The notes under the pieces: model-generated | Told to the model about the DNA's origin: nothing | Database searches by the model: none | What the model saw: the letters and a program-made list of their open reading frames with translations, nothing else | NCBI RefSeq assembly: GCF_947623445.1 | Contig: NC_135248.1 | Span: forward strand, 15,447,820 to 15,511,819 | Reading direction: 5' to 3' | Length of the DNA: 64,000 nucleotides | From: Clavelina lepadiformis | Taxonomy: Eukaryota > Chordata > Ascidiacea > Aplousobranchia > Clavelinidae | Shown here: positions 2,572 through 64,000 of the stretch, piece by piece | How positions within the stretch are numbered: the stretch's first letter is position 1 | Layout: every line of letters starts with the position of its first letter | Made by a program: the position numbers and the translations under genes

Positions 2572-5354
2572 TCAAACAGTTTTCCTTCTTCTGCTTGTTC
2601 CAGAGTCATTCTTCTTCTTTAAATCGCGTTCCGCGCGCAAACACTTCAACTGCTGCTTCTCGAACCGGTTGGTCGGGGCCTCTCGTTTGTAGGAGAGAAG
2701 ATACAAGTCTGCGAGATTAAGAACGCTCCAGTTAATTTTTAAATGAAATTAAGAACTTAGGAGTTCGTTCCTGGACGATTGCGAGCAGTGGAATTAATCA
2801 CAGAAGATTTTATGCAAGCACTAATGATGTAATCACCTGCGTCATCTTGCACCGGGGACCGGAGCAGAAAGTCTTGCATTTCGTCATGCTTGTGATACGA
2901 TGACGTCATGGTTTTCCACTCCTCAAGCGGCGACAAAATGTTCGCCAAATTTCGTAATTTCTGTTCAACAAGAATTGATTAAAATCGGGCGATTCTTTAA
3001 CTTCAAGCGAAATAGAAATCATGAAAATTTTATGAACCAGCAGATGTCGCAAGCAACTTACCTCCACGTTCACGTTTCCGGCTTCATCGATCGTGGGAAT
3101 GGCGTGGTTCAGGAAGTAAACGTCTTTGACCAGCAGCACCAGGAAGGGCACCATAACGCCATCTTGCGGCAGAGCAGCACCCTGCTCGAAGGCGAAATGC
3201 TTCTTGGAGGATGCGGCGAAACTCGGAGGGGATGTGGAGTCGGGGGAGGTCTCGTGATCGCATTCGATCCCGGAGTCGCCCTGTTGTGACGACGTTGACG
3301 TCACAGAGGCGATCGAGCGCTGGGAGATGATAGAGTAGCGATTTTCTTCTTTAGAGTCCGCAGGAGAAGAAGAAGAATGGAGCTTTTCTATCCTGCTGCT
3401 GTAGATGGTTCGGTATTTCTGGAAGTTATTGGTCGGGTCAAAAACGGTCTGAAAAGTAAAAGCTTGTTCACAATTTGTCGTTGCAAATTTATCGCACAAA
3501 TGACCGCGAAATCTCTTGTTGTGATGATGTTGTTTAAGAACATCTTAATACGTCTTATGCTCACCTGCAAGTGGTGGAGCTCAGACAGAAGCAATTTGCT
3601 CCAAGTCCTCTTCAGTCTCGTCACCGGTCCCAGACTGAGTCCGGTCAGGATCGCCATCGCTGAGTTGAAGTTGGACAACTCGAAGCATCTGTCGGCGACG
3701 CGCGCGAAGAAAGTGATCACGTGACGACTGTGTTTACGCTTCCGACACTGCGTTAAAAAAGTCGAACGTTAAAGTAAAAATATTCCAAAATCTTAAAAAT
3801 GAATAAAACGGCGCATCAACTATCATCGTTTGTTGCCATGGCGTCGTCTGCAACTGACCTGGCATATGACGGTGCCAACTAGGTGGCTCAGTCTGTTGAA
3901 CCACCTGACACAGGCGCCCAGGTTTGTTCTGACATCCTCATCACCATCAGCTGTGAACATCTGGAGGAATTCCTCGGCTCCCACATGCCTTAGAAAGTCC
4001 TATGAAGAGATGATGCTGTTATCGCGATGTGCATCAACGAACTCAAGTACTTATGCGACGTCTGAATGACTCGCCACTGGCGCTTACCATTTCGATGAGG
4101 CAGAGCTGCTGCGCCATGGCGTTAACATCTGTGGCGTCTTTAAGGATCAACACCAAGTTGACCATCCAGTCGCGCGTTTTCGGGTATTTGGAGCTTTCTT
4201 TCAACCAATTATCGCTCTCGGATCCGCTCAGCTGTTGCTCGTAGCTCTCCTGCGCCGCCGTGCGACGTGATATGCAGTCGATCACTTGGGTACATTGGCC
4301 GGAAAGTTCCTGTCGGCGGGAAACAAAGAGTTGTAAAAATTCCGTTGAGCTTTTATTACGTCACGTTCACAATAACCTATCGACATACACGGTATAGGTC
4401 GCAACCTACTGTTGCTGGCAACAGAAACTTACCTCATTTTCGCTTTGACAACTCTTTATGACGTCATTTAAAGTCCACATGTTCTTCTTGTTTCTAAAAT
4501 CGGCGGGAAAATGTTTGACCCACTCGTGGAGGACATGGACCAACTGCCGCTTGTGCGACATTGACTGGGACCTTGCCGAGATGATCGCGCACATTTTGCA
4601 CGCGTCTGCGGGATCCTCATCCAGGAGAAGTCCGCTGTCGTTGATATTTAGTCCGGCCCTCTCCGCCGCCTTCCGGCTGTTAGAGTTGTTGTTTGCGTTA
4701 TCGAGCTCTTCCCAGTCGAGCACGGCAGATAAGATGCCGGAATCCCGCGACACGGTCGATGATCTGTCGGCGGCCAGCAAGTTTTCCAGCACCCGGGGTC
4801 GCACAGGTGAGGAAGAGCCTTGTTCTTCCTGGTTCCTCTTCCGTCCTCTCCGTCTTCTTCGGATCGTCTCCTCACCATCCATGACCATGTTATTGGAAGT
4901 TGATGGGGATGCGTTGATGGTAATGTAGGCGCTTGATCTGTACTTGGCCGCTCCCGCGCGGAAGTCGGTGCCCTTCTGTGCTGAATTGTTGATGGCGGTC
5001 GCATTTGGCAGCGGTGCCACGACTGTTGCTTTGGGTTCATCACGGCTTTTGGAGTGCATTTCGCGGCATTTAGTGCACATTTTTCCGGAAAACGAGCGGC
5101 GATTTTTCTGATCGTTCGCTTCGTTGGAAAGCCGGTGCAAGTCAGTCAAGAGCTGATGCGGCGATAAGAAGAGCCGAGATCCGAGTAGAAATGAATAGAT
5201 GAATTTATTCTGAAGAAATAAACCTACAATGAAAATCTGTCAACGTACTCAACGACCTTATAATATCTTTTCATACTCAACCTACATCAGCTTTGGTGGT
5301 TTTTTCATTCAGCAGATGGCGCAAGAGAGCTTCTTGTCGCATTGTTTCCTCCAT
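2572..5354 (-). CDS. RASGEF1: RASGEF1-type Ras guanine-nucleotide exchange factor
   Basis: RasGEF proteins release GDP from Ras-family GTPases at membranes; RASGEF1 members are reported to act on Rap2-type GTPases. Exons on the minus strand, 5' to 3': 5286-5354 (from the first ATG), 4433-5209, 4088-4309, 3859-3999, 3565-3747, 3062-3448, 2837-2960, 2572-2708. All junctions are GT/AG and in phase, giving about 679 residues. The RasGEF-N module starts with FIYSFLLGSRLF. The catalytic CDC25 domain is seen in AQQLCLIEM, WFNRLSHLV, FNSAMAILTGLSLGPVTRLKRTW and VPFLVLLVKDVYFLN. The last exon, LYLLSYKREAP onward, matches the family's extreme C-terminus. Human RASGEF1A is about 480 residues; the excess is a low-complexity insert inside exon 4433-5209. 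The start is uncertain: an acceptor at 5376 leaves an open frame upstream of the ATG, so either an upstream exon or trans-splicing is possible. Confidence 0.88.
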
Positions 5355-28191: not shown

Positions 28192-28197
28192 TTTAGG

Positions 28198-28269
28198 AGG
28201 TCCCGCCGAGATTTGAACTCGGATCGCTGGATTCAAAGTCCAGAGTGCTAACCGTTACACCACGGGACC
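28198..28269 (-). tRNA. tRNA-Gln (anticodon TTG)
   Basis: A 72-base minus-strand cloverleaf. The acceptor stem pairs GGTCCCG with CGGGACC. The D-arm/A-box segment contains TGGTGTAACGGTTAGCA. The anticodon stem-loop is CTGGACTTTGAATCCAG with anticodon TTG. The B-box/T-arm segment is GAGTTCAAATCTC. Positions and sequence match eukaryotic cytosolic tRNA-Gln closely. There is no intron and CCA is not encoded, as expected. A T-run terminator follows. Confidence 0.97.
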
Positions 28270-47450: not shown

Positions 47451-50400
47451 ATGTTGTCATTGTATTCAAAATTGGGAGCTGAAGATGTTGGCGCTCTGGT
47501 GGACATCGCTCGTCATCATTCTCTGTCAAAAGGAATTGTTTTGTGGGAAGCGGACGACCAATTAATAAAGGTTTGCGCACAATAGATATTACCATGGATA
47601 TTACCAGGACTTTAACTTTATGTTTTCATTCATGTTCTTTGCATGAAAAGCTACAAAACTGCTCGTTAAACGTTCCGGGTTTTGTTCGCACAATTTTGCG
47701 TCACATCTTGGCTTTTGTTCTTCGAACGTTGGTCATTGAACCCCTTCACATGTGACCTGCATTGCGCTCATGAATTTGTGGTAGTAATGACTTTTTTAAT
47801 CTTGCTCGAACCAATCAAGTTTTGTTGAAGCAAGGCCGTTTTAACTCTGAGCATTGGTGACGTTGATTCTAGGGTCAACATTGAGTGAGCTTGTTTTGAT
47901 TCGATGTACAAATTCAAATTCATTTCAACAATCTTATTGCCTTGCATTGCAAAGCGGCACTAAAAATTTGTACAACGTGTGTCTTATTTTAACTTTGCGG
48001 TTTTTGCTCTAACACTGCTGCGTTGCCTGCCGTAGACATGCAAGCCGGCTTCATTCACTCTGCTGCCTTCCCCAGTCACAAAAGAAGGATTTCAATTCTT
48101 GACGTCTCTGCAACCTCATATCAATAAATTGTTGCACAAAGTCAGCCATGACCATCAATTTATGGCCATGGCTTTAGAAAGGTGCGACGTTTTATTTGTT
48201 TTTATTTCGAAGAAACAAAAAAAGTGATATAACTACAAATACAATTAAAATTATTCATATTCTTGTACAGTCTTGTCAATATTGACGATTTCACCAGGAG
48301 ATTGTACGATCTTTACAAAGCTTCAAAATGTTCAGGTAGAAAGGTCGGTATTTACTTTGACAAGTTGGGAAAGTTGTAAAAGAAATTTCTTTTATTGTTT
48401 TGTATGTTCATAACATTTTTACTGCTTATTTTTATCCAGGGCTTGGAGTTGGGCGTTTTTCGCTCCGATTACATGTTTCGTCTCGAGGTCGATGAAAATG
48501 GAAAAGAATCTCACATTCCGAAGCAGATCGAAATGAACACAATGGCTTGTGCTCTTATGGATTTTGGCAGCCAAATAACCTCCGTTCATTCCAGTATCTT
48601 GACAGATGCCGGAATGGAAACTCTTACGTCACAATTGCCTTCGAATAAAGCCCTGAGCGAGATTGGTTTCGGTTTCCAGGCAGCTTGGGAAGCTTACAAC
48701 AATCCCGACTCTATTTTGCTCTTCGTAATTCACGAGTTTGATCCAAACAGTTTTGATCTACAGGCGATGGAAGATGCAATTTTTAAAATTAATAAAGATA
48801 TCTTGATTAGAAAGAAGAAATTCTCAGAACTCCTCGGCTCTGTTATGCTAACACAGGATAAGAAACTTATGGTGTAAGAATATTTGTCATATTTTATAAC
48901 GATCCATCACATGCTTAGAAACAACTTGTATAGTTTATGAGCTTTTATAGCGTTGTATTGAAACCCAAAACACCACAATCTACTGCTAACCCACCTTTAA
49001 AACTACAAATATTTATCGACTAACTTTTTGTCAATGCTCACACTGTTTATATATTTCCAAATTCATGTTCCACCAGAAACGATGAAGAAGTCGCGGTCGT
49101 TTACTTCCAGACTGGGTACGGCCCTGAAGATTACATCAATGAGCGGATAACCTTGCACCTGACGTCACCATTAGCTAATTTCGGTTCAGTGATTACAATA
49201 GTTTGATAGATCGCCGGTGAAATGTAAACGCAAAATACTGCACAAAAATAGCCCGATGCTGCGTTGCATGTAGTGAAAATGCGCAGTAATGTAGTTATAA
49301 TACAGTAAACATGAGTTCTGATGTAACGGAGAGAAACTTTAGTTCAGTTTGTTATGATTTTCAAAATTTTTTTCTTCATTTCGAATGACTTTTCATATAA
49401 AGCTTTGCTGAAGCACAACTCTTAGCACAAGTTTAAGTTAAACCGTGTCAACTATAGAGATAAGCTGGAGATTAGTTGCTAAACTTTCAACTTCAAATTT
49501 TGACTTGATGATTGACACAGATTGATTTGTCCTTGAACTGAACTGTACTTGGCTTCGAGTGAACGCGGTTAATTCGAACAACTGACGAGGAGCCGTCTAC
49601 TTACATGATACCGGTTGAACTTATTTTGTAACAACAATTGCTTAATGTTGCGGTTTTTATTTTTCTTAAGTGTTGGGACATCCGGCGAACAATTGAGATG
49701 AGTTGCGCTGTGGTCGGTCCTATGGTTGGGTATCAGCTTGCCGGGTTCAAAAGGGTGCAAGAAGTCTTGGCACAACCGAATGTGCTTGAGAAATTTATTG
49801 ATGATCCCGAGGTGGCCCGACAAGTGAGGAGCACTTTCGTTGGATTCTATCCACTGGAGATGGTAAAGAAGTAACATTAACACCAATAGTTTTAGTTTCA
49901 GTTTTTGTTGTTTGATGACTCCAGCACTTGCCACAGATGCTACAAAGATTTTTCACAGAGGTTAAATGACTTTCTTAACATTTAAGAACTCTGATGGAGA
50001 CAAAGTCGTGCAAATGGCGATGAAAAACCCTGACTCTTACGTTGTGAAGGAACAGCGCGAGGGTGAAGGTGAAAGATTTGAAACTATTTTGATTTATCTA
50101 GAATACTCTCAATAACTCTTTCAATTGTCTGATAATAAACAAGCTTTTGTTTGTGCCATTGATCAGGAAACAATTACGTCGGTGATGACATAATCAAACT
50201 ATTCAATGAGGTGGGCAGCGATGAAAGAAGATGTGCTTATACTCTGATGGAGAAAATTCGCCCGAAGCCAATTGACAACGTTTTTGTCACTGCCAGTGGT
50301 TTTGAAGAAATGAAGGCTGTCAGCGAATTGGGGACATTTGGAGTTACACTGGCGTACGCTTTACATCATCTTTCTTGTTTCACTCAGCTAAGTTTATGTG

Positions 50401-50653: not shown

Positions 50654-53258
50654 ATTCCGACTTTTTAAATCTACATTCAATGGATCTTCATCTTATTTAT
50701 CCTCGCATATCGTTTCAAGGATGCTTTGGTTGTTTTCTTTCACAAACAAATCTTATTTTGTGTCTGTAGTAGAATTCAATGTAGACTCTCCATCGTTATG
50801 GGGTTAAGTTAAACAAACTAAATTTAAAACAAGTGAAAGGTTTTTTCAATGCGTTCATTCTGGTATTGAAGCTGTGTTATATGCAGTGACGGTACAGTTT
50901 GTGTAGACGTTTGGTTTGTAATTGTTTATGCGGAGAGTTGTATAAATATAAAATTAATCTTAACTGGGAGCCTCATAATATGACCGATATGCTTCAGGAA
51001 TTTGATGCACATTCAATGAAATGATTTATACATTTCAATCAACCAACATGTATACTTGCATTGAGAATGTGCATTTCATGGCAGCATTCGCCGAGATCTC
51101 GGGTGTGCAGAACCGCAAACTCAGGTGTGCAAGCGTGCGCCTAAGCAATCTACCTCCTGTGCAATTCTAGGCTAACATTTGTAACTATAGATTTATCAAC
51201 TGATTTATCTGTGGAGCGGATAGATTTTTGTGAGTTCTTATAGAACTTCGGTCCATCGTTACCACTAAATGGATGAAGCCAGTTTTGCTCCCTCGTCGCG
51301 CATCAACGATTGTAAGCATATTTCATAGAAACGCTTTTGACATTTTCTTTGTTATGATAATGTCCTTACTGATTCACTGAGCTTTATTTGCTTTCAGAAG
51401 CTCTTATTCTTGTATGCTTGTATCATTGTTTAACTGTTTACCTTTCATAACAATTCGGTAATTTTAAGGACAACCAAATGCAAGGATTTGTTTTTAGGTC
51501 GTCAACAAGTGTAATTTCACGACATAAAGTAGTCATCAACACAGCACAGGAAGATGAGCGAAAACTTTTTTACTCGCCTCGCAGAAGATTATGAGGTAGA
51601 GGATTAGGTATCGTTAATTAACTTTATTGCTTACATGTTCCAGGAACTAAACTAAAGGGTTGGTGTTGACTAATCAACATCTGAAGACGATAAACCTGAA
51701 GTTTGCAGTGTTTGCACAAAGAACGCATTTCCATGTTAGCGTATAAAAACTTGAACAAGATGTGTTAATACATTTCAGCTGCTCGTGGAATGTGTCGACG
51801 AATCTCTTCTGATTTCTCTGCGTGGTATCTCGCTTTTTGACCATCTTTAGAGCAAGAACGTCACACATACGTGGCCGCTTTTGTCTTGTCTTACTTTTAT
51901 TTCCTGTCTGTTTACTTTGCAGTAACAGCCTCATGATTTCTGGATAATGACCATGTGTTTTTCAGTTCTAAATCTTGAGATAGCTTGTCTAACAACTTCA
52001 ATAATGTCACCTTTAGACACTTCAATCGTTTCTGAATAAAGTTAAGAAAAATGGAAGCTCAGTAATCCCAGAAACAATTCCTAGCAAAGCATTTCGAGTA
52101 ATAATAACAGATATGAGCTTCTTCAGCCACGTGGACCATTTACAGTTTATTTCGTAAATATTTAATGACGTCACTCGAGTTGAACAAGGAACAGATTTTA
52201 TCCACGTCATAAACCACAAACAATAAGAGAAAGACCTAAAACACAAAAAGTCTGAAAATAAAGGTGATGCTTTTCCGTCACCTAGCGGTCAGGATAGACA
52301 ACGCTGCCTTAGTTGTCACTTCCCAAGTTAGCGCGGGAGTTGGAGAACATGAGTATACGAGTTCATAGCAAGGCAGCCTGAATGCGCCGTATATGCCTGT
52401 AAAAACGCCTAATTTCTTTGTTTATATTATTATAAAGGGAAATTACTAAAAATGCAATTAATCGAAATTTCCGACTGGAGCTTCTTGAAATTTTGTATGT
52501 CGCTGTAGTACGTCATAGGCTTGTGGTGGTCCTTCGTCTCGACCAGCGGTTGTCAAAGTTTGTTTCATGATCCTCCCTTAAAACCACTGGCCTCGACCTA
52601 AACTAGAGCTCACTATGATAACAAACAACTTGTGAAGAATGAGCTCTTTCTAGTGGCACGAATGATGATTGCATGGACCTGTCTCCAAGTAAAACGCTTA
52701 ATCCATGGACATTACTCGAGTAATTGTTAAGCGACGAATTTAAACTGTGTAATTAAACAGGAAAATTAATAGCTTTGCTGGAGTTTGGCAGCCTAGTCAA
52801 CAGTAGAATATAAAAGTCAATATATAAGTGGTAATTAGGTGGTCGATACGTGTACGTAATTCAGCGCGATCACTCACACTTGCAAGTGTGGACATGACAC
52901 GAATTCTGTGAATCTTCTGTTATTAAGATCAGTTCTGTGTTTGTAGACTTCTTTCACGTTCATGACATGTTACAATAGAACTGAGAGCGTTTCAAATTTT
53001 CCACACTTTTGTGACGACACAGATGAAATGAGGACTGATGTCATAATTGATGGACTCACTCACCACCGGATGTGAAACATTCAATTTTATCGCGGATACC
53101 GCGCGACAAAAGACACAAAAAGTTTTTAAACTTTTCTCTTTGGAAAGATCCTCAATCGCTGAACACGCTCGAACTCGTGTATGACGTTACACTACGTGAT
53201 CTTCCACGTGACCGATGTCTTCTAAACGACAAAAATTTTAAGTTTCGGTAAACCTAAT
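50654..53258. other. Intergenic DNA between GSS and the SR-cyclophilin gene
   Basis: The two genes converge here. I see no exon, RNA gene or transposon with recognisable ends. One TGACGTCA occurs near 52167. Confidence 0.45.
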
Positions 53259-53275: not shown

Positions 53276-56200
53276 CTACCTTCGTCTTCTGCTTCTAGAA
53301 TGTTCGCTGCTGTAACGATCGTACGATCTGTATCGAGAGCGCCGTCTACCGACAAATATCAACACGTTAAAGTCAAGTGACTGCCAAACGTTTAAACAAG
53401 ATTTCTCAAAGCTAGAAACTGACGTAACTACAAAGCGATACGATGTATATGAAACTAAAATCAATTTCAAGGAGAAAAAATGTTATCGTGAGGTTCCCAC
53501 GTTCAGTAGAAATGCTGGGCGGTTGTAGGTGACGTAACATACCTTGAACGCCCTGGTCTATAATGACGACACGGTCTATCTATGTCACTTCCGGATGATG
53601 ACGTATAGAAGGAAGAACGGTCACGTGAGCTGTGAAAATTTTGCAGAAACTCAATTGGTCAAGTTAAGTTCAACGACAATGAGCTAATAGTTCAACATGA
53701 ATGACGTCATAAATTACCTGGATGAGGAGAAATAAGAGTCAGAGCTACTTCGTCGTCGTCTTGACCGCGCGCGTTTGTAACTCGCGTACGACGATGACCT
53801 CGACGAAAACCTGCAAAGTCATGACGTTACATTTCTAATTTTGACGTTTTACGCTGATCTCAATTTCCGAGACCGACCTGCTGCTGCCTGACCTCGAGTG
53901 GTGGCGCTTCGAGTGCTTGCTCCTGTCGCAACGAGAGAAGATTGAGCGAGATCTTGAGCTGGGTGAAGTACAAGACTTATGTGCGATTGTAAAACAGGCA
54001 AAACTTCATTCATCGCAACTTGACAATAGAAACATTATAACTCACCGGGCACTCCAAGATGAGGAGCTCCGAGAGGAATAGGAAGAGCTTCGATGCCGCT
54101 TCCTTCGTCGTGAACTCCTTTGACCTCGACTCGACCTGGAGGATGCGGGGGAGGGAAGAACTTTGTCGTCGCTGGCAACAAAATGTCGACGAGTGTTTCG
54201 AGCAGAAATATTTGAGTCCGAGTCACATCAAGGAGTTACTCACCTGCCCTCTTCGAAGAACTTCTGCATGGCTTCCTCTGTGACGTCATGACTTGCAAAC
54301 ATGGCCGCCATCTTGTCGTCACTCAACCGAGTTGAATCTGACAAAACATAGAAATTTTAACGAATGCAGAATCGCAACCATTACAGTAGTGACGTCATCC
54401 AACACAGCCCAAGCACTTGAGATGAGCTGTGGAGCACAACTAGTGCTTGGCCGAGCCATAACCAGAGCAGGTAATTACCATAGACGGGTTCCGGCGGTCT
54501 CTCTGGTTCACCTGCACAATAAACATCACATTAATCTCTATCAAATTGATCCTGCCCTCGCAACCAACTCGTCTTACTTTCGTCCGGCAGCGGCGGGGGT
54601 TCGTCGTTCTTCGGTGGAAGGGGATTCCCCATGAAATTCATGGCCATCGGAAGTCTGGGAGGGTAGCCCATGAAATGAGGGTGGGGGTAGATTGGGGCTG
54701 GAATTCCCCTGTGCACCATGTAGGGGTTCATGGCATAGTAGGCGTGGTAGGGGTTCATCATGTGAGGCACTGGGTTCATTTGAATATTGCCGTTGTATGT
54801 GCTCGTTGTAAATGACGTCATATGGCTTGTGGATGTCATGCGCGCCATGTTGCTGCTTGAGACATTGGCGTTGGTCGTCGTTACTGCAAGCGTGGCTGCC
54901 GATGGAGCCACTGGCGCGGCGGTAAGTTTGGTCTGTTTTGTTTTGTCATTTGCAGTTTTGTTTTTGTCTTTTTTGCGTTTCTTTGATTTCTTAATTTTCT
55001 TTTTCGAACTTTTCTCTTTGCTTACAGCTTCTTGCTTGGGGAGGTTGATTTTGAAGACAAAAGTCTTCTTGTTGGTGGGAAGCGGTTCATGCAGGGTCAG
55101 TTCGTTGTCCTCAGATCCACTCAGGTTTGCTTCGATGACCTCATTCTGTCCAGTTTTTTCATGATTTGATATTTTCGACATCGAGGTATTTTCTTTTCCT
55201 TGATCCCCATCCTGCTTTGATCTTCGTCGAGATTTTGTTTCCACAGATTCTTCATCAGACCAGATCCCGACATCTCGGACTTGTGGAATTAATGAGGATT
55301 CTTTCTTCTCATCTTGCCTCTGTTTCATCTTGTTGGTTTCATGTGAAGGAAGAATTCCGAATCCGGAAGATGAGTTGGATGTGGGACTTTTAATCCCAGC
55401 ATTTGACCCAATCTCCTCCTCACAAACTACAACAAGATCATTTGATGGAGATACAACCTCTGTAGCTACTCTTTACTTTAACAACAAGGCAATAGACTTA
55501 GTTACTTTTTTCAGTCAAGGCCTCAGGGTCATCTGGGGCTTGATCATTCTTTTTCGATCTTTCATTTTGCTCAGGAAGTTGATCACCAGCACAGAGCATT
55601 AATGCGTCTTCAAGATCTTCACTGGGACTGCTCTTTGAAGATTTCTTTTTTTCCTGACATGGACAAGACACATTTGATAGAATTAGATGAAGCCGTAAAA
55701 TTGGAAGTGATGACAACAGCAGTAGTCATCACCAGAAATGTGAAACATATCCTCAAACTTACCTTATCGTGAAGAGATTTCTTGCTTCCTGCTGGAGAAT
55801 AATATGAAAATGTGAGTGAAGATTATCATACAATTATCCCAAGATTTATTTTATTAATTACCAACTACGGGCAAAAATATTTGCTAAACACATCAAGTAA
55901 ATATTTTTGGTCTGATTTGTTCAAAACTATCTTTGGTTATTTCTCTGGAAAGGTCATCTTTTAACTTTTGTCAATTCAAAAAGAGGAATCTAGTTCCATG
56001 ATAGTGGAAGTGAAAATCTCATCGATTTACCGAAAAGATCAGGATTTGAACCGATCTTGTTGTGTTTCATCATCAAGCTGTCAGCTTCCTTTGCACTCTG
56101 CACATTTAAACAAGAGAACTCTAGTTTTCAAATAAACGCATAGTTACATCATAATGAGATTTATTATTCAAACGATGCCATTTTGTGTCTCTTATCAGTC

Positions 56201-59200
56201 ATATTGGGTTAAAACTTCTTGGAAACTTTTACCGCATCTTCCAATTCTTCACCGAACTCTAGCGGAGGTTGCCATGGTAACAATGTAGGCTTTTTCTTTT
56301 TATTTGTTTTCTTCATCAAAGATTTTTTGAAATCTTCCAAAACTTTTTTATCTGAATACAAACACAATAATAGTTCGAATGACGAGTTATTTCTGTCGTA
56401 GATAGACACAAGTTTGACAGACCTTCATTCCCTGCTGTATGTTTTGAAGATTTTGAAAGTGATTTTGGAAGCAAATCCAGCTTTTCTATTTTTCCTCTAA
56501 ATAATAAATGTGGGTTATAACAAGAAAATAGAGAGGTTGAAGTAAATTATACAAAACTCACCTTTCACATTTTGAGTTCTCTTCAGCCGATAGACCAGAT
56601 GAGTCGAAGGAACTTTCACTACTGCTCCATCTAAACACATCAAATTATCGATCTGTCGTTAAATGCAACAAAAATGTTTTTAAATTAAATATTTTATTCT
56701 TTTAAAAACAAGGAAATCTCAAGCAAACGACTTCATTTACATTTTCGTCACTTTCTTCTTCTTCTTTCTGCGTTCAACTTTGCCGGATGAGATTGCATTT
56801 GGGCAAGGTTTCACACAAACTCTATAAATATGCCATAACGCAGTCATAGAACAACTGTCACTAATATATAAGATGTTTATAGGATATCTTAAGAAAAGTG
56901 CAAAGAACTCACATATTGTCGAGATGAGCTTCAGCATCATTCTTGGTCGTTTTATCTAAAATTGACAAAAGTTTCAATGTTACTGGAGAGAAAGTGTAGA
57001 AATGGATGAGCCCAGACCCTGCTACCTCAGGCAAAAGCGCACGAACCAATACAAAACCTCATTGAGTGCATACAAGCCACAAATGATGCCATTAGACCAA
57101 CTATATTGTCTCTTGATAATGATCGACATCGAAGGTTCAAATGTTCAAACTTTCAATATTAACTGAATTGGACAATCAACTGGCCCACAGTAACGAGAGT
57201 AATCTTATTTATCTATTAACCATTCATTAAAATTACTATAATATAATTTAGATTTATTGTAACGAAAAAATCGTTTACCAAACTCATTCTTTGAATTGTA
57301 GTTTTCTGCATTTTTGCTGCTTTCAGGTTGGGACCGGGGCTGCAAAGTTAAAAATAAAGAAACAAATTATTGATATGATTTCAACACAACAATCAACCAC
57401 ACATTGCTTTATGATGTCTTTAAGAAATTATATTTTTCAATACAAAAACTCAACAAAATTCTTTGAAACAATCAAAGCAGATGAAAGATGCTTAACAAAT
57501 AAAAAGCTACAGCAAACCTTTTTGTGTTTGAGAAGAGAAGCTGCATTTGATTCATTTCCATGCAAACTGTTCAATTCACAATTCCCTGCAAAACAAGAAT
57601 TGAGTTAGATCCTGATGCAACAAAGCAAGTCATCATCGTTACTCATCAGTGTTATTGTTACTTGGAAGTATGATCAACTCACTGCTCTCCTCCTCTGAAT
57701 GTGACTCTGGGGAGTCCCACTTGCTTCTTCCACCGACTTCCTCTTCCACATCAAGCTGAGAAACAAGAGAAGTATATTTGTAAGTGAAGCAGATGACACT
57801 TCACAAAATTCATCCTGATTCCAAGGATGTTCAAACCAGCAGGTGGCGCATTTATGAAATTGCTAACCAACAACAAGCCTAAAAAATTGCTACAAAAACA
57901 TCGCTGTTGCTTAAACAAGTCCTGCGCCAAAGAAAAAGAAAAGCAAAGATTCACCGAGCGCTGGAAGAGATTCGAGATTATGTGTGATTAAGGTTGTGGG
58001 TTGAGGCAACTTATTGTTTGCTCACATCAGAAATATGCTGGGTGGGATCAATCTTCTATACAAAGAAATTATTGGCAGGACACTGGGAGATTTTTGCTAA
58101 TTAGGAATGCTCAGATACTTATAAAATAATTTTTTACATGACAGCTCCCTCCCACTGTTAATTGGGTAGAAAAGAAAGCTAGAAACCTTATTCGAAGATA
58201 CAGGAAGATAAGTCACGGCAGTGATCCTTAAATTGAGAAGAAACAGAAGTTTGTAATTATCATTTTGACATTTATAGAACAAATACAGCACAGAATGCAA
58301 ACTCAAAAAGAAATACGCATTTTCGACAGACGCCGATTCTACATATTTCATAAGAATAAACCACTTAACTACCCACTCTCTACTATTCATTGATATTGCA
58401 ACTAGTTGCTTTGCTGTTGAGTTAATATTTTATATCAGTTACTACGTTACAAGTGATTTATATTGCACTGACATCATCAGCTGGCACTGGCAGCTTGGTT
58501 CTATCTCGGGAACTTTTTTTCCGCTTCTTCTGTTTCTTCTTCTGACGAAATTTCTTCTTTTTCTTCTTCGCTTGCTTCCCCCTGTCATTGGTCGACTTTT
58601 CTTTGGGTCCAAATACCTCGTCATTATCTTGCCTGCAAACATCAACATCATAAAAAGCAGAAATACAATTACTTAAAAGCTTAATATAACATCATAAACA
58701 CATTTATCATCTTAACAGCAATAGGAGCGTACGAAATGGGTGACTTCATATCATCTTCACCATCTGACCATTTCCCGTGATAACTTTTCACGTCACCATC
58801 ACTCTCCCATAAGTTGGGTGAAATCCTGCAATAAAGCTCACGTTGAACTTTCTAAATCAAGGCAACTTTTCCCACTGAACAAACTTGCAAGGCATAATGG
58901 AGCAGATGAACTACTTTTAAATACTAAGGTAACTCTATTCTACAACATGCACGATACATAAAGCAACAGATGAAATTATCAAGAGCAACAGCGTTAACAC
59001 ACAAGTGGGCTGAAAATCATTGAATTTATCTCAAATTTTACAAAAAAATACATTTTTGATACTTCTACACTAGCATATTTTAGATTATCTTTAATCTGGA
59101 TAATAAAGTTGTTTTTTACATAAATAAGACTTTCAGCCCAAGTTTAAAAGCGTCATTAGCTTTACATTTAGCAATTCCGAAAGGTATTAAAAACTTCACA

Positions 59201-62200
59201 CAATACCTTACCTCCCAATGAAAAACCTTTAAGCAAACCACTTTTCCTGCCGGGTGACAAGACAAAAAAATTTATAAACATTTGTCTGTGGCGGAAAAAG
59301 CAAAATGTCTTCATACGGAATGAAAACAAGAAATTAATTAAAGTGGAAACTGTACACATACAATTTGTGGAAGAGACAAGATTTGTTGGTTTTTATTAAA
59401 GTTACAATTAAGTTATTGCTACAACAAACTTACCGACAAAACAATCCACAAGATCCAGATTATTCACGAAATGGCAACAACCATGTTGGAAACAACTATC
59501 GCCAACTTACATCTAAGTCTCGTTCAAAGTTAACAAAGATAAAAGTTTGTGAAGAGCTGACTGTATTTACAAGGTCCACACCACAACAACACAGACATAT
59601 TATATAACACGCGTTTTAATTGCATTGAGGTCACTTTGCCACAAACATATTTGCATTTAACATTTCTCGAAAAATTTTATGACGATTGTCAAAGGTTAAA
59701 AGTGTAATTACACTTATTGGCTCACAAATGCTTGGACCACCACAGATAAAAGTTTTGGTTTCGTTGTTGTCAGACCAGCAGATCAAAGTGATTTGGGGAA
59801 AAATAAACATAAAAACACGAGTTAAGACAATGGAGTGATAGATTAACGTTTAAACACAACTACAATTAACTAAGTGAATCTAAAACTTGTAAAGCAAACA
59901 TAAACATATGTTGAGCTGCAGTTCATTGACAAAATTACACGTTAATTCATGGACTTATGCCCTGATCCTGCCCCGGAGCACACAACTGTGCATGTTGAAG
60001 GAGATGATAGAGCTGTGGCGATTGCTTCAATATATCTGAGTGAGGTGGGACGAGGATCTTAATCTGATGATGAGGAGCGAGATCTTCTCTTCCGACGATC
60101 ATCATCCGAACTACTGCTGGTGGAGGACGATCTTCTTGATCTTTTCGCATAAGATGAAGATCTGCTGGATGAACTTCTCCTCCTCCTCCGAGATGCTGAT
60201 GACCTCCTAGGCCTGTATGGACTCCTTGACCTTCGACCTCCACGAGATTGTGACCTCCGACGGGGTCGATACACGGGAGAGTGCCTTCTTTCTCGATATG
60301 AGCGAGGTCTTGACCCAATCGGACTTCTACGACGATGATCTCTTGACCTGCGTCGTTCCATAGATCGACGACGACGACGATCGTGTCCTCTTGATCTGGA
60401 GCGACTTCTCATTCTATCTCTGCTCCTCCTCCTCGGAGAACTCTTGTCATCATTTTTGCGCTTATCAGGAGACGCTGACTTTTTTCTCAGAGGTTGCGCA
60501 ATGTGTTGTTCCTTGATTCCTTCTTCCACTTTTACCTTGGTATCATCGGCTGCTTGATGAGGTGGAGCAGCATCTTTTCCTGGAAACTCCTGAAGATCAG
60601 CTGAAACGTTCATCAACATCACTTCATCCTGAATAGACTCAACAGCAGCTATCTCCTTATCCACACCATCTTTCTTTTCTTCAGGAGCAGCGATTGGTTC
60701 TTCAGATGCGGATGGTTCTTCGTCCTTGATAGCTTCCGTGGATTCTTCCACTTCCAGCTTGACTGGTCTGTTCAACTCCTTGTCTGCAACATCCACTTCA
60801 GAAACTTCCTCTTCGACGATCTCAACAGAGTCTTGAGGAGGCAGTAGATCATCTTCCACCTTGATGTTTTGAACATCCAGTTCATCTTTCACCGCATCAA
60901 TAGAGTTCATGTTGGAATGTTTCGGTGAAGAGGCAAGATCTTCGTTATCACTTGAAAGATCCGCTTTATCCTGGATCGAGTTCTCCTGCTCGGGAATTTT
61001 CTCATCATCGCCGTCACCTCTCTCAAACTTTATCACTCTGTTTGATGTCGATGTTTTATCACGCAATCTGCCACGATCTCTATCATCTCCGTTCTGGATG
61101 TGACCCCTTCCCAAGTCCCGATTATCGTCCCTGTTCATGTCGCGCCTTCCCCTGTCACGCCCCGAAGTCTGTCTATCGTCCCCCCTGCTCATATCACGAC
61201 CTATTGACCTTTTCTCATCCACCGGTGATGTGGAGCCTCGCCTCCAACGGTCCGCGGAAGACTTTTTCTCCAAAGCCCGTTCTGCTCTCTGTGCCGCCCT
61301 CCAGTGAGGAGGAGTCTCGCTCCCTCGTCGCTCCCTCCATGATCCGTGGCGGCTGTGGCGACGGGGGCTGCGTGAACGAGACCGTGATGGGGTTCTGTAT
61401 CGCTGGATATCAAGTTTAAATATATAATTATGTCACAAGTATGATTATGACATCAGCAAACAACAGCATAAAATGAATGCGAGCAAGCTTTGAAGAAGCA
61501 TAAAACAAAGAGTTAAAGTTTAGCCTGAAATCCAAAATAATTCTATTATTCCATAAAACACTGCACATTACGATATAATTTAACAGATTTTTAACTTTTG
61601 TTGCGGACTAGTGGACAGTTCATTTGTTGCATCATGACCTCATTATACAGATTATCCACATGACTGGATGAAGGATACTAACCAGCGATCCGCGACCTTT
61701 TATCTTGCGGCCTGACCTTGATGTCCAACTTCTGCCCTGGCTTCTTTCAGAAGCCGGTGTCTGACTGTCGGTGCCAGTTGAACGGTTCCTGACATAAAAC
61801 AATCACAAAATAAATTTGCTGTATTCCTTGTTAATTAGTTGTATTCCTACAATCTGATAAGATCTCCTCTACACCACTGGCTGCAAACACCAGATCATTT
61901 TGACAAGTAGGGGGCAGTATTTGTCTTGTCTCTATTCCAACTGTTTTGCACCTTCGCGAAAAAACTTTATTTGTTGAATTCAACAACAAAGAATCGGCGC
62001 CAATATCACGCATTTTGATGCTTATCGGCATCGGCCTGTTTCTAATCCAGCTGCTGATACCAAAACACTTTAAAAACGGGTGAATTGGCTCGCTCCAAAA
62101 GCGATGCCTCCAAATTATATTCCTTTAGTGCTATTTGTTGATGGTGTAGGATTTAGTCTGCACCACATGCTTTTGAAACACAAACTGTTTGATAAGTGAA

Positions 62201-64000
62201 TAAAAGTGTTTCAATAAAGTTTAGTGTAACGGGTTGGTAACCTTCAAAATTTTGACCTTAATATTTCCGTTATACTACAAATTAAAATCGGTTTCTTTGG
62301 CTGCTAAATAGTTGATAGTGAGGTCGATCTAGCAGCAAGGGTTATGCTCATGACCATCTTTCAACTAAACAATTGTGCAAAGTTACCCGAGAGCTGAATC
62401 AAAACAAACTGAACAAAGTGCTTCTGTGCAGGCTCTTTTAATGGGGATTGCCCACAACCGAAACAACTTAATACAATTAGTTATAAGATGTCAATCGCAT
62501 GCACGAGAACTAGCAGCAATAACATCTAAGTGAAACAGATTTATGAAACGATTTGAGTTCAACACCGTTTTCTATCATCGCAACGTCGTCATCAGTGTAA
62601 GAACGTAAACGAGCACGATTTCATGCTTTGGTTTCACTCAATCCTAAACATAGACATCTTACCCATCCTTGGATCCAATTCTGTCAAGGAACCTGCTCGG
62701 TGGAACATCCGGGATTTCTTCTGCTGATATTGAGCTCCAAGTTGTTGCAACCGGTTTCTCTTCTACCTCAGGTCTATAATTACGAGAAAATGTTGAATGA
62801 AGTCTAAAGTTGCAAATACTCTGGTGAAGACAATTGTTTTCTATGGCCTATGTTATCGGGAACCACTTGAACATTGTTCAGTAAAACTAACTCCAGTTCC
62901 TCTTTAACTTCTGTGTGTTTTTGCTTCTTCTCTTTCTTGTGCTTTTTCTTTTTCTTTTTCTTGTTTTTCCCATCATCAGAGTCTGAGGCGTCCACAGACT
63001 CTTCCTCTGATCTCACAGATTCTTTTCGCTTCTCTGGAAACCACATTCACAGTTGATAAGTTGATCACCAACCACCGATAAAATACGGCTATTAACCATT
63101 AATAATAACTAAAATCAGACGATTTTGCGCCAGATGCCCAGTTGCAATGAAACTCGATGACAAAACATAAACCAGGTGAGAACTGGAACAGGCAAATTAC
63201 TATCAAATGATTTAGCTACAATTTCAATGATGTGAACAAAATTAACAAACAAAAAGTTGACGTACTTTGCTTCTTCTTGGACTTGGTTGCTAGCACCAGC
63301 TCACCACAGTGCACCACCTTGCATTCAGTCAACGGCCGATTGTTGGCGTCGGTCTTTTGTGACTCTATTCGCTTCACAACTGCTTCCCCATTCACGACTC
63401 GACCAAAGACAACATGGATGCTGTGGATGGATGGAGAAATGTGACGACTTGATATTATTTTATCAACTTAGCATAAAGAGTCAAAGATGTGAAATACTGA
63501 CGCCAACTCACCCATCTAAGTGCGGGGCTGGCTGGGTGGTTCTGCAAAGACACGGCAAGTTAATAAACCTCATGAATCTCCTCGATTCATCAAAGCCAGG
63601 AGCAGGCTGATAACTAGACGAGCTGCAACGACTTACATGAAGAATTGTGAGCCGTTCGTGTTCTTCCCTCTGTTTGCCATCGACAGTAGGAAGGGTTTGT
63701 CGTGTCTCATTTGAAAGGATTCATCTGCACAAAACCCAGAGTTTAAAACCAAGCAATAGAACTCTTATATTTTGTTTTACTCTTTCTATTCTAGGTTTAT
63801 GAGCAGAAGACGCGATGGCCGACCTGCAAAGTATCCGCCAAAGATGCTCTCCCCACCGCGGCCATTCCCTGCATGAAGAGAAGTAAAGACTTGAGGTGTG
63901 TTCTAACACCAAAATCTATCTTAATTCTGCGCAGAGAGAAACTGTGAGTACACAGCATAGACATATCATAATACAAATACAACAAACCTTCACAAGGAGT
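53276..64000 (-). CDS. NKTR: SR-cyclophilin, NKTR-like long form (5' end off window)
   Basis: A nuclear peptidyl-prolyl isomerase with RS domains, expected to associate with splicing factors. Shared exons on minus: 63824-63868, 63637-63724, 63512-63541, 63266-63420 (cyclophilin: [40 protein letters not shown]), 62892-63033 (Lys-rich), 62663-62773, 61683-61788 (GRKIKGRG), then 61209-61402 ([18 protein letters not shown]). Long-form exons: 58733-58825, 58473-58632, 57683-57755, 57518-57585, 57279-57339, 56913-56955, 56741-56821, 56562-56630, 56423-56496, 56233-56351 ([10 protein letters not shown]), 56031-56097, 55763-55791, 55506-55653, 54578-55426, 54479-54511, 54244-54337, 54046-54171, 53878-53958, 53718-53810, 53543-53629, 53276-53345. 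All phases agree. The C-terminus is an RS domain. A 13-base piece at 63988-64000 may be the preceding exon. Confidence 0.88.
60059..64000 (-). CDS. PPIG: SR-cyclophilin, PPIG-like short form (5' end off window)
   Basis: Uses the same cyclophilin, Lys-rich and GRKIKGRG exons as the long form, but reads straight through exon 60059-61402 to a TAA stop instead of splicing at 61209. That exon encodes [23 protein letters not shown], a basic Arg/Asp segment, a long acidic middle (many Glu, Asp, Lys) and a C-terminal RS domain ending in RSRSSSSD. This architecture is that of vertebrate PPIG. No good donor lies near the stop, so the exon is terminal. A possible AATAAA on minus is at 59392-59397, about 660 bases downstream. 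Whether both forms are made cannot be shown from sequence. Confidence 0.82.

Follow-up and report, generated by a model that had tools for sequence, protein, structure and literature searches.

The window analysed here, a 64,000-nucleotide stretch of the genome of the ascidian Clavelina lepadiformis (C9:15447820-15511819), contains on its minus strand most of an SR-cyclophilin gene related to vertebrate PPIG and NKTR, at which two alternative 3' ends can be read. The coding chain comprises 33 exons and runs from the ATG at 66053, which lies outside the window, to a stop at 53152; exons beyond the end of the window are given as window-equivalent positions. All 32 introns are of the GT-AG type, and the translation of 1231 amino acids (the long form) has no internal stop. 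The shared 5' exons code for the cyclophilin domain and the GRKIKGRG and SETPPHW segments, as had been claimed by the sequence-only reading, an earlier note made from the letters of this DNA, and exon 11 can then continue in two ways. The donor AAG/GTCAAT after 61209 joins 58825 in phase at residue 371, and the chain goes on through 22 further coding exons, of which exon 21 (56351-56233) carries the NKTR signature and exons 28-33 an arginine/serine (RS) domain. Alternatively, a single open frame spans exon 61402-60059 up to a TAA and has an RS-rich end; together with exons 1-10 it would give a short form of 753 amino acids. The junction, the read-through frame, both RS domains and the NKTR-like segment order of the spliced protein had all been read correctly, whereas 20 exons had been counted past the junction, and the stop lies beyond the limit of 53276 given for the locus. 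RS or SR dipeptides number 23.8 per 100 residues in the last 126 residues of the short form and 22.4 in the last 170 of the long form. As a side observation, exons 28-32 (54171-53280, minus strand), which make up most of the long-form RS domain, are each a multiple of three in length and each in phase 2, so that the frame would be kept if any one of them were skipped or repeated.

The long form is represented by a database protein of C. lepadiformis, P0001, which uses the 61209-58825 junction, differs from the translated chain at one of 1231 residues (F938V) and comes from another contig (its longest 6.6 Mb) than the 15.7-Mb contig of the window. It is matched by the cyclophilin domain family PF00160 at 8.4e-48, and the post-cyclophilin segments of SR-cyclophilins (EIPxxP..., SGRKIKGRG and SETPPHW) are all present in the gene. 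Three other tunicate proteins continue across the same junction, with both of its flanks conserved, namely P0003 from Phallusia, P0004 from Styela and the JGI protein P0006 (1239 amino acids), which groups with the tunicates at 100/96 and whose longest contig of 3987 bases leaves scant room for introns, suggesting that it was derived from complementary DNA. Tail similarity was expressed as standard deviations (s.d.) over shuffled sequences under two shuffle schemes, the first covering 16 comparisons and the second keeping dipeptides approximately, and the long tail reached +6.3, +9.7 and +14.5 s.d. with the three tunicate tails. The polyadenylation (poly(A)) signal between the two 3' parts of the locus, with a gap of 1.2 kb, could also suit two adjacent genes that had been falsely joined, the first of them PPIG-like with its end at 60059 and the second beginning at about 58.8 kb. 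A separate start for the 58.8-53.3 kb exons, named in the sequence-only reading as a refuting observation, was looked for; upstream of exon 12, as far as the first stop met, there is no in-frame ATG, a result that speaks against an independent downstream gene. Moreover, phase and donor fit the junction, and tunicate, sea-star, mollusc and vertebrate proteins hold the cyclophilin domain and WQPP in one chain. A separate gene downstream of 60059 was rejected on the missing ATG and this conserved fusion, and a false join is very improbable.

The case for the short form begins with the open frame. When the reading frame was followed past each of the 32 donors, it remained open for 383 codons after exon 11 (the split codon counted) and for at most 47 codons (median 12) after the other 31; the exon 11 read-through frame is the longest open frame in the window, and with stops as frequent as in the gene's introns, a frame of this length would arise by chance with a probability of about 7e-12. 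The GC content of the read-through is 0.482, as compared with 0.474 in coding sequence, 0.351 in the other introns and 0.366 just past the stop. Its codon choice, scored with the shared exons as the training set, exceeded the expectation from intron composition, a level reached in 13 of 5000 synonymous draws. Approximately 440 bases past the short-form stop, an ATTAAA is followed by TGTCTGTGTTGTTGTGGTGT; in a scan of AATAAA and ATTAAA on both strands of 72 kb with a simple GU-rich downstream score, this site had the top score among 255. Judged from these features of the genomic sequence, the read-through end very probably codes for protein.

Several observations weigh against this. In absolute terms the codon score is close to zero, at -0.07 per codon for the read-through and -0.001 for the long-form exons, so that codon choice supports coding only weakly. 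The GU-rich rule was chosen after the ATTAAA stretch had been seen, and it gives at most 15/20 past the long-form stop (to 51500), so that it marks real ends unreliably. The short messenger RNA (mRNA) is predicted from the genome, P0001 is the long form only, and no complete short form was found in three protein searches (word-sharing candidates, two of the searches giving the best 120 of 968 and the best 120 of 1538 hits). Among the 206 proteins pooled from the listed matches of these searches, no tunicate short form was recognised, and the only other copy of the short tail was the fragment P0206 (257 amino acids; E 0.001 among 7972 scored candidates). P0206 aligns with the read-through tail over 236 residues with 3 substitutions and one two-residue gap, the frame being kept, and sits on an ENA contig of 1165 bases; its last approximately 21 residues match C1:14260406-14260474, a stretch whose DNA has no other match in this genome. 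The contig of P0206 may be chimeric, or it may reflect an insertion carried by another individual; P0206 was rejected as a sign of a short mRNA because the contig runs on into sequence like that of chromosome C1. A Pfam search of the read-through frame gave nothing at E 0.01.

A locus that makes the long form only, with the read-through frame either left as a relic by a former terminal exon or giving rare aberrant mRNA, would be consistent with the single database protein and with the restriction of tail relatives to one fragment. A relic should lose its frame, yet the 383 codons are open and the coding-like GC content is intact; the codon choice of the read-through exceeds the intron expectation, and the P0206 variant keeps the frame across a two-residue deletion. 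We therefore regard a locus producing nothing but the long form as unlikely.

Splice sites were ranked by leave-one-out with weights built from the gene's own sites. The donor at 61209 ranked 7th of 32, matched 7/9 consensus positions and scored highest among the 65 GT sites that exon 11 and its extension contain, whereas the acceptor at 58825 ranked 28th of 32. The proposal that a weak GTCAAT donor provides the regulated step was thus abandoned, since this donor scores above all other GT sites of the exon and above 25 of the 31 remaining donors; the weak site is the acceptor. Intron 11, with 2383 bases, is the longest of the 32 introns, the next longest having 1102. The combination of a good donor with a weak acceptor and an intervening poly(A) signal fits, as far as sequence features go, a race of splicing against intronic cleavage, and such a race may be what regulates this gene. 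In composite terminal exons, an internal exon is reported to extend past its donor until it meets a stop and, within the intron, a poly(A) signal used in intronic polyadenylation (PMC4227790, PMC3708835, PMC5928244). Exon 11 has the same arrangement, as both the stop of its read-through frame and a poly(A) signal lie inside the intron; the mechanism is not new, and the difference is that the tail added here is a long RS-domain protein end.

The search for a second copy that the earlier note had suggested detected one SR-cyclophilin locus in the genome (209.06 Mb in 95 contigs): a 164-amino-acid junction segment gave 5 scored candidates and 4 exon matches, all at this locus, and the read-through DNA matched only itself. 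No second SR-cyclophilin gene was found, with the 29 cyclophilin-domain matches in the genome not sorted into genes. An unrooted tree was built from 361 columns of the shared half of 36 proteins. Several of its vertebrate rows are named only peptidylprolyl isomerase, and the PPIG and NKTR labels assigned here are consistent with the tree. The 16 vertebrate rows lie on one side of a branch with support 99/97 and the four tunicate rows on the other; the 7 NKTR rows group at 100/100, and the PPIG side, with 9 rows including a lamprey protein, at 94/83. On that side, the tunicate rows join the insects and crustaceans with weak support (80/87), contrary to the accepted animal tree. Thus, the phylogeny proposed at the outset separates the tunicates from PPIG plus NKTR in the best tree but does not settle their place, since approximately unbiased (AU) tests rejected neither a grouping of the tunicates with NKTR (p 0.236) nor one with PPIG (p 0.222).

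Of the 206 proteins, 17 carry the motif W[QK]PP. These are all 4 tunicate rows, the NKTR rows with one exception (6 of 7), one protein each from a sea star and three molluscs (chiton, scallop and argonaut), and 3 unnamed proteins that the tree places with the molluscs or the sea star. The NKTR row lacking it is P0117, an 805-amino-acid goby protein, and it was found in none of the 9 PPIG-side and none of the 9 arthropod/priapulid tree rows. A second motif, [RH]WK[PR]GQK, is present in 11 of the 206 proteins, among them 6 of the 7 NKTR rows together with the sea star and some molluscs, and in none of the four tunicate rows (P0003, P0004, P0006 and this gene), suggesting its loss in tunicates. 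The occurrence of W[QK]PP in tunicates, a sea star and molluscs points to the NKTR type as older than the PPIG type. On the other side of the balance, the similarity of the long tail to five vertebrate NKTR tails is uneven (+0.1, +4.4, +1.3, +0.9 and +2.0 s.d.), that to five mollusc and sea-star rows ranges from -0.3 to +2.1 s.d., and two of six PPIG tails reach +2.3 and +2.2 s.d.; outside the tunicates, the apparent kinship with NKTR depends largely on the exon 21 motif.

The short tail scored between -0.7 and +1.5 s.d. with all six vertebrate PPIG tails, that is, without similarity beyond composition, and no homology of the two tails was found under either shuffle scheme. Its highest whole-tail scores were with frog NKTR (+4.5 s.d.), scallop (+4.0 s.d.) and honeybee (+3.2 s.d.) proteins, none of them PPIG. 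In 26 comparisons of its non-RS core (256 amino acids), values ranged from -1.1 to +2.3 s.d. with the PPIG-side lamprey protein on top, whose whole-tail score was -1.1 s.d. The term "PPIG-type" for the predicted short form is one of architecture (the shared half, an RS end and a like length) rather than of demonstrated homology.

These tail comparisons bear on the proposal of the sequence-only reading that both proteins were made from one gene before the vertebrate duplication. In such a history, a pre-vertebrate gene would have made NKTR-like and PPIG-like proteins by splicing and intronic polyadenylation, the duplicates would have kept one end each, and the disordered tails would have diverged past alignment. 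The single tunicate gene with both ends, the grouping of PPIG and NKTR apart from it and the RS domains that end both forms agree with this history, as does the lamprey core score, which is unsurprising once among 26. The same course is documented for fungal SKI7/HBS1, where the products of a single alternatively spliced gene were later divided between duplicates and two proteins were shown, each complementing one paralogue (PMC3597508). The Clavelina gene resembles this system in that one gene has two proteins matching two paralogues elsewhere, and differs from it in that the short form is putative and its tail cannot be aligned with that of the paralogue. If each isoform is to be homologous to one paralogue in its specific part, NKTR qualifies through the motif and PPIG does not. 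Furthermore, the short tail scores no better than shuffles with PPIG (6/6), it is carried by none of the Phallusia, Styela and P0006 proteins, no tunicate short form was recognised among the listed hits, and tail loss accounts for PPIG without an ancestral isoform. Because disordered tails change fast, the missing similarity is weak evidence, and an ancestral isoform pair retains some, albeit low, probability. Of the earlier proposal, one locus with two 3' ends of coding quality and the vertebrate PPIG and NKTR proteins grouped apart (unrooted) have stood, whereas a PPIG-type end in the gene before duplication has not. The general idea of isoforms divided between duplicates is already documented, and a review of the field exists (PMC5306129). 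The titles and abstract openings of the listed papers on NKTR, PPIG, SR-cyclophilins, NKTR with intronic polyadenylation and Moca-cyp contained no description of alternative 3' ends of an invertebrate SR-cyclophilin.

Vertebrate NKTR is like the long form in having an N-terminal cyclophilin domain, SGRKIKGRG, SETPPHW, a WQPP-type motif and a C-terminal RS domain in the same order. The long form is shorter than the motif-bearing NKTR rows (1231 versus 1295-1998 amino acids) and lacks the [RH]WK[PR]GQK of most NKTR rows, and in contrast to NKTR the Clavelina gene has a second 3' end at the same locus. Vertebrate PPIG (SR-Cyp, CARS-Cyp) shares with the short form the N-terminal half, the RS-rich end and a similar length (753 amino acids versus 754 in human), although its tail is not detectably related, it is a separate gene and its rows lack WQPP. 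Arthropod SR-cyclophilins (Moca-cyp and relatives) have the same N-terminal segments as the Clavelina gene but no WQPP part in 8 arthropod tree rows. The position of PPIA Trp121 is reported to be a histidine in PPIG and NKTR, which permits cyclosporin binding (PMC2911226). Human PPIG and NKTR are the solved structures nearest to the cyclophilin half, and the PPIG domain is the best match to the Clavelina domain. The stretch that presumably matches Trp121 in the Clavelina protein, placed by its motif, is PHLDG and also has histidine. Both isoforms would therefore be expected to act as isomerases in the nucleus, with different tails.

The coordinates of the gene are collected in Table 1. Elsewhere in the window, a transfer RNA (tRNA) for Gln with a TTG anticodon at 28196-28269 (minus strand) is the sole Rfam match at the gathering threshold and the sole tRNA found. 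Two neighbouring open frames at 2909-5239 (minus strand) have weak RasGEF_N and RasGEF matches below the Pfam cut-offs and are probably exons of a RasGEF gene, and an open frame at 48380-48874 (plus strand) matches eukaryotic glutathione synthase (PF03917, 2e-17).

Table 1. Exons and 3'-end features of the Clavelina lepadiformis SR-cyclophilin gene (window positions; w.e., window-equivalent)
Feature	Position	Strand	Basis or remark
Shared exon 1	w.e. 66053-65996	-	outside window, carries ATG
Shared exon 2	w.e. 64893-64819	-	outside window
Shared exon 3	w.e. 64659-64552	-	outside window
Shared exon 4, cyclophilin	63824..63868	-	in-phase chain; PF00160 matches
Shared exon 5, cyclophilin	63637..63724	-	in-phase chain
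Shared exon 6, cyclophilin	63512..63541	-	in-phase chain
Shared exon 7, cyclophilin domain end	63266..63420	-	in-phase chain
Shared exon 8, Lys-rich linker	62892..63033	-	in-phase chain
Shared exon 9, a shared post-linker segment	62663..62773	-	chain and protein comparison
Shared exon 10, SGRKIKGRG segment	61683..61788	-	chain and protein comparison
Shared exon 11, SETPPHW segment, donor AAG/GTCAAT at end	61209..61402	-	chain; donor rank 7/32
Exon 11 read-through extension, 382 complete codons and TAA, acidic stretch then RS-rich end	60059..61208	-	
ATTAAA poly(A) signal and GU-rich downstream stretch, likely short-form 3' end	59615..59620	-	
AATAAA, alternative short-form poly(A) signal, without GU-rich stretch by the rule used	59392..59397	-	
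Intron 11 of long form, 2383 bases	58826..61208	-	
Long-form exon 12, weak acceptor TTTATTGCAG, rank 28/32	58733..58825	-	in-phase chain
Long-form exon 13, Lys-rich	58473..58632	-	in-phase chain
Long-form exon 14, RSKWDSPES segment	57683..57755	-	chain and protein comparison
Long-form exon 15	57518..57585	-	in-phase chain
Long-form exon 16	57279..57339	-	in-phase chain
Long-form exon 17	56913..56955	-	in-phase chain
Long-form exon 18	56741..56821	-	in-phase chain
Long-form exon 19	56562..56630	-	in-phase chain
Long-form exon 20	56423..56496	-	in-phase chain
Long-form exon 21, NKTR motif (WQPP part)	56233..56351	-	chain and protein comparison
Long-form exon 22	56031..56097	-	in-phase chain
Long-form exon 23	55763..55791	-	in-phase chain
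Long-form exon 24	55506..55653	-	in-phase chain
Long-form exon 25, 849 bases, PPPLP segment	54578..55426	-	chain and protein comparison
Long-form exon 26, ERPPEP segment	54479..54511	-	chain and protein comparison
Long-form exon 27	54244..54337	-	in-phase chain
Long-form exon 28, RS domain	54046..54171	-	in-phase chain
Long-form exon 29, RS domain	53878..53958	-	in-phase chain
Long-form exon 30, RS domain	53718..53810	-	in-phase chain
Long-form exon 31, RS domain	53543..53629	-	in-phase chain
Long-form exon 32, RS domain	53280..53345	-	in-phase chain
Long-form exon 33, RS domain end and TGA stop	53152..53221	-	chain; P0001 ends alike

Based on the gene model and the protein comparisons, a possible scheme for the formation of two proteins is proposed: one gene with two competing 3' ends, of which the long form is ancestral and the short form limited to Clavelina, an account that we hold to be probable as a whole. 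Splicing of 61209 to 58825 would remove the 2.4-kb intron and yield the conserved 1231-amino-acid NKTR-like protein. If the transcript is instead cleaved near 59.6 kb, at the poly(A) site, before intron 11 is removed, exon 11 would act as a composite terminal exon and a 753-amino-acid protein could be formed in which the cyclophilin half is unchanged and the tail is a different one, acidic plus RS. Which end is used would most likely be decided by a race between the weak acceptor at 58825 and the intronic poly(A) site, which is a good one. The long form would be the ancestral product, and vertebrate PPIG would have arisen after duplication through loss of the NKTR tail; since the NKTR-type motif is old, plain loss can explain PPIG, which is probably a shortened copy. 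The short tail of Clavelina would then probably belong to a separate, lineage-limited isoform with like architecture, and its end is most simply seen as a separate product of intronic polyadenylation.

A splicing-linked cyclophilin whose own mRNA end would be chosen by splicing versus polyadenylation is an obvious candidate for self-regulation. In addition, an apparently unduplicated chordate relative of PPIG and NKTR allows the origin of PPIG to be tested, either as the loss of a tail or as an isoform made permanent.

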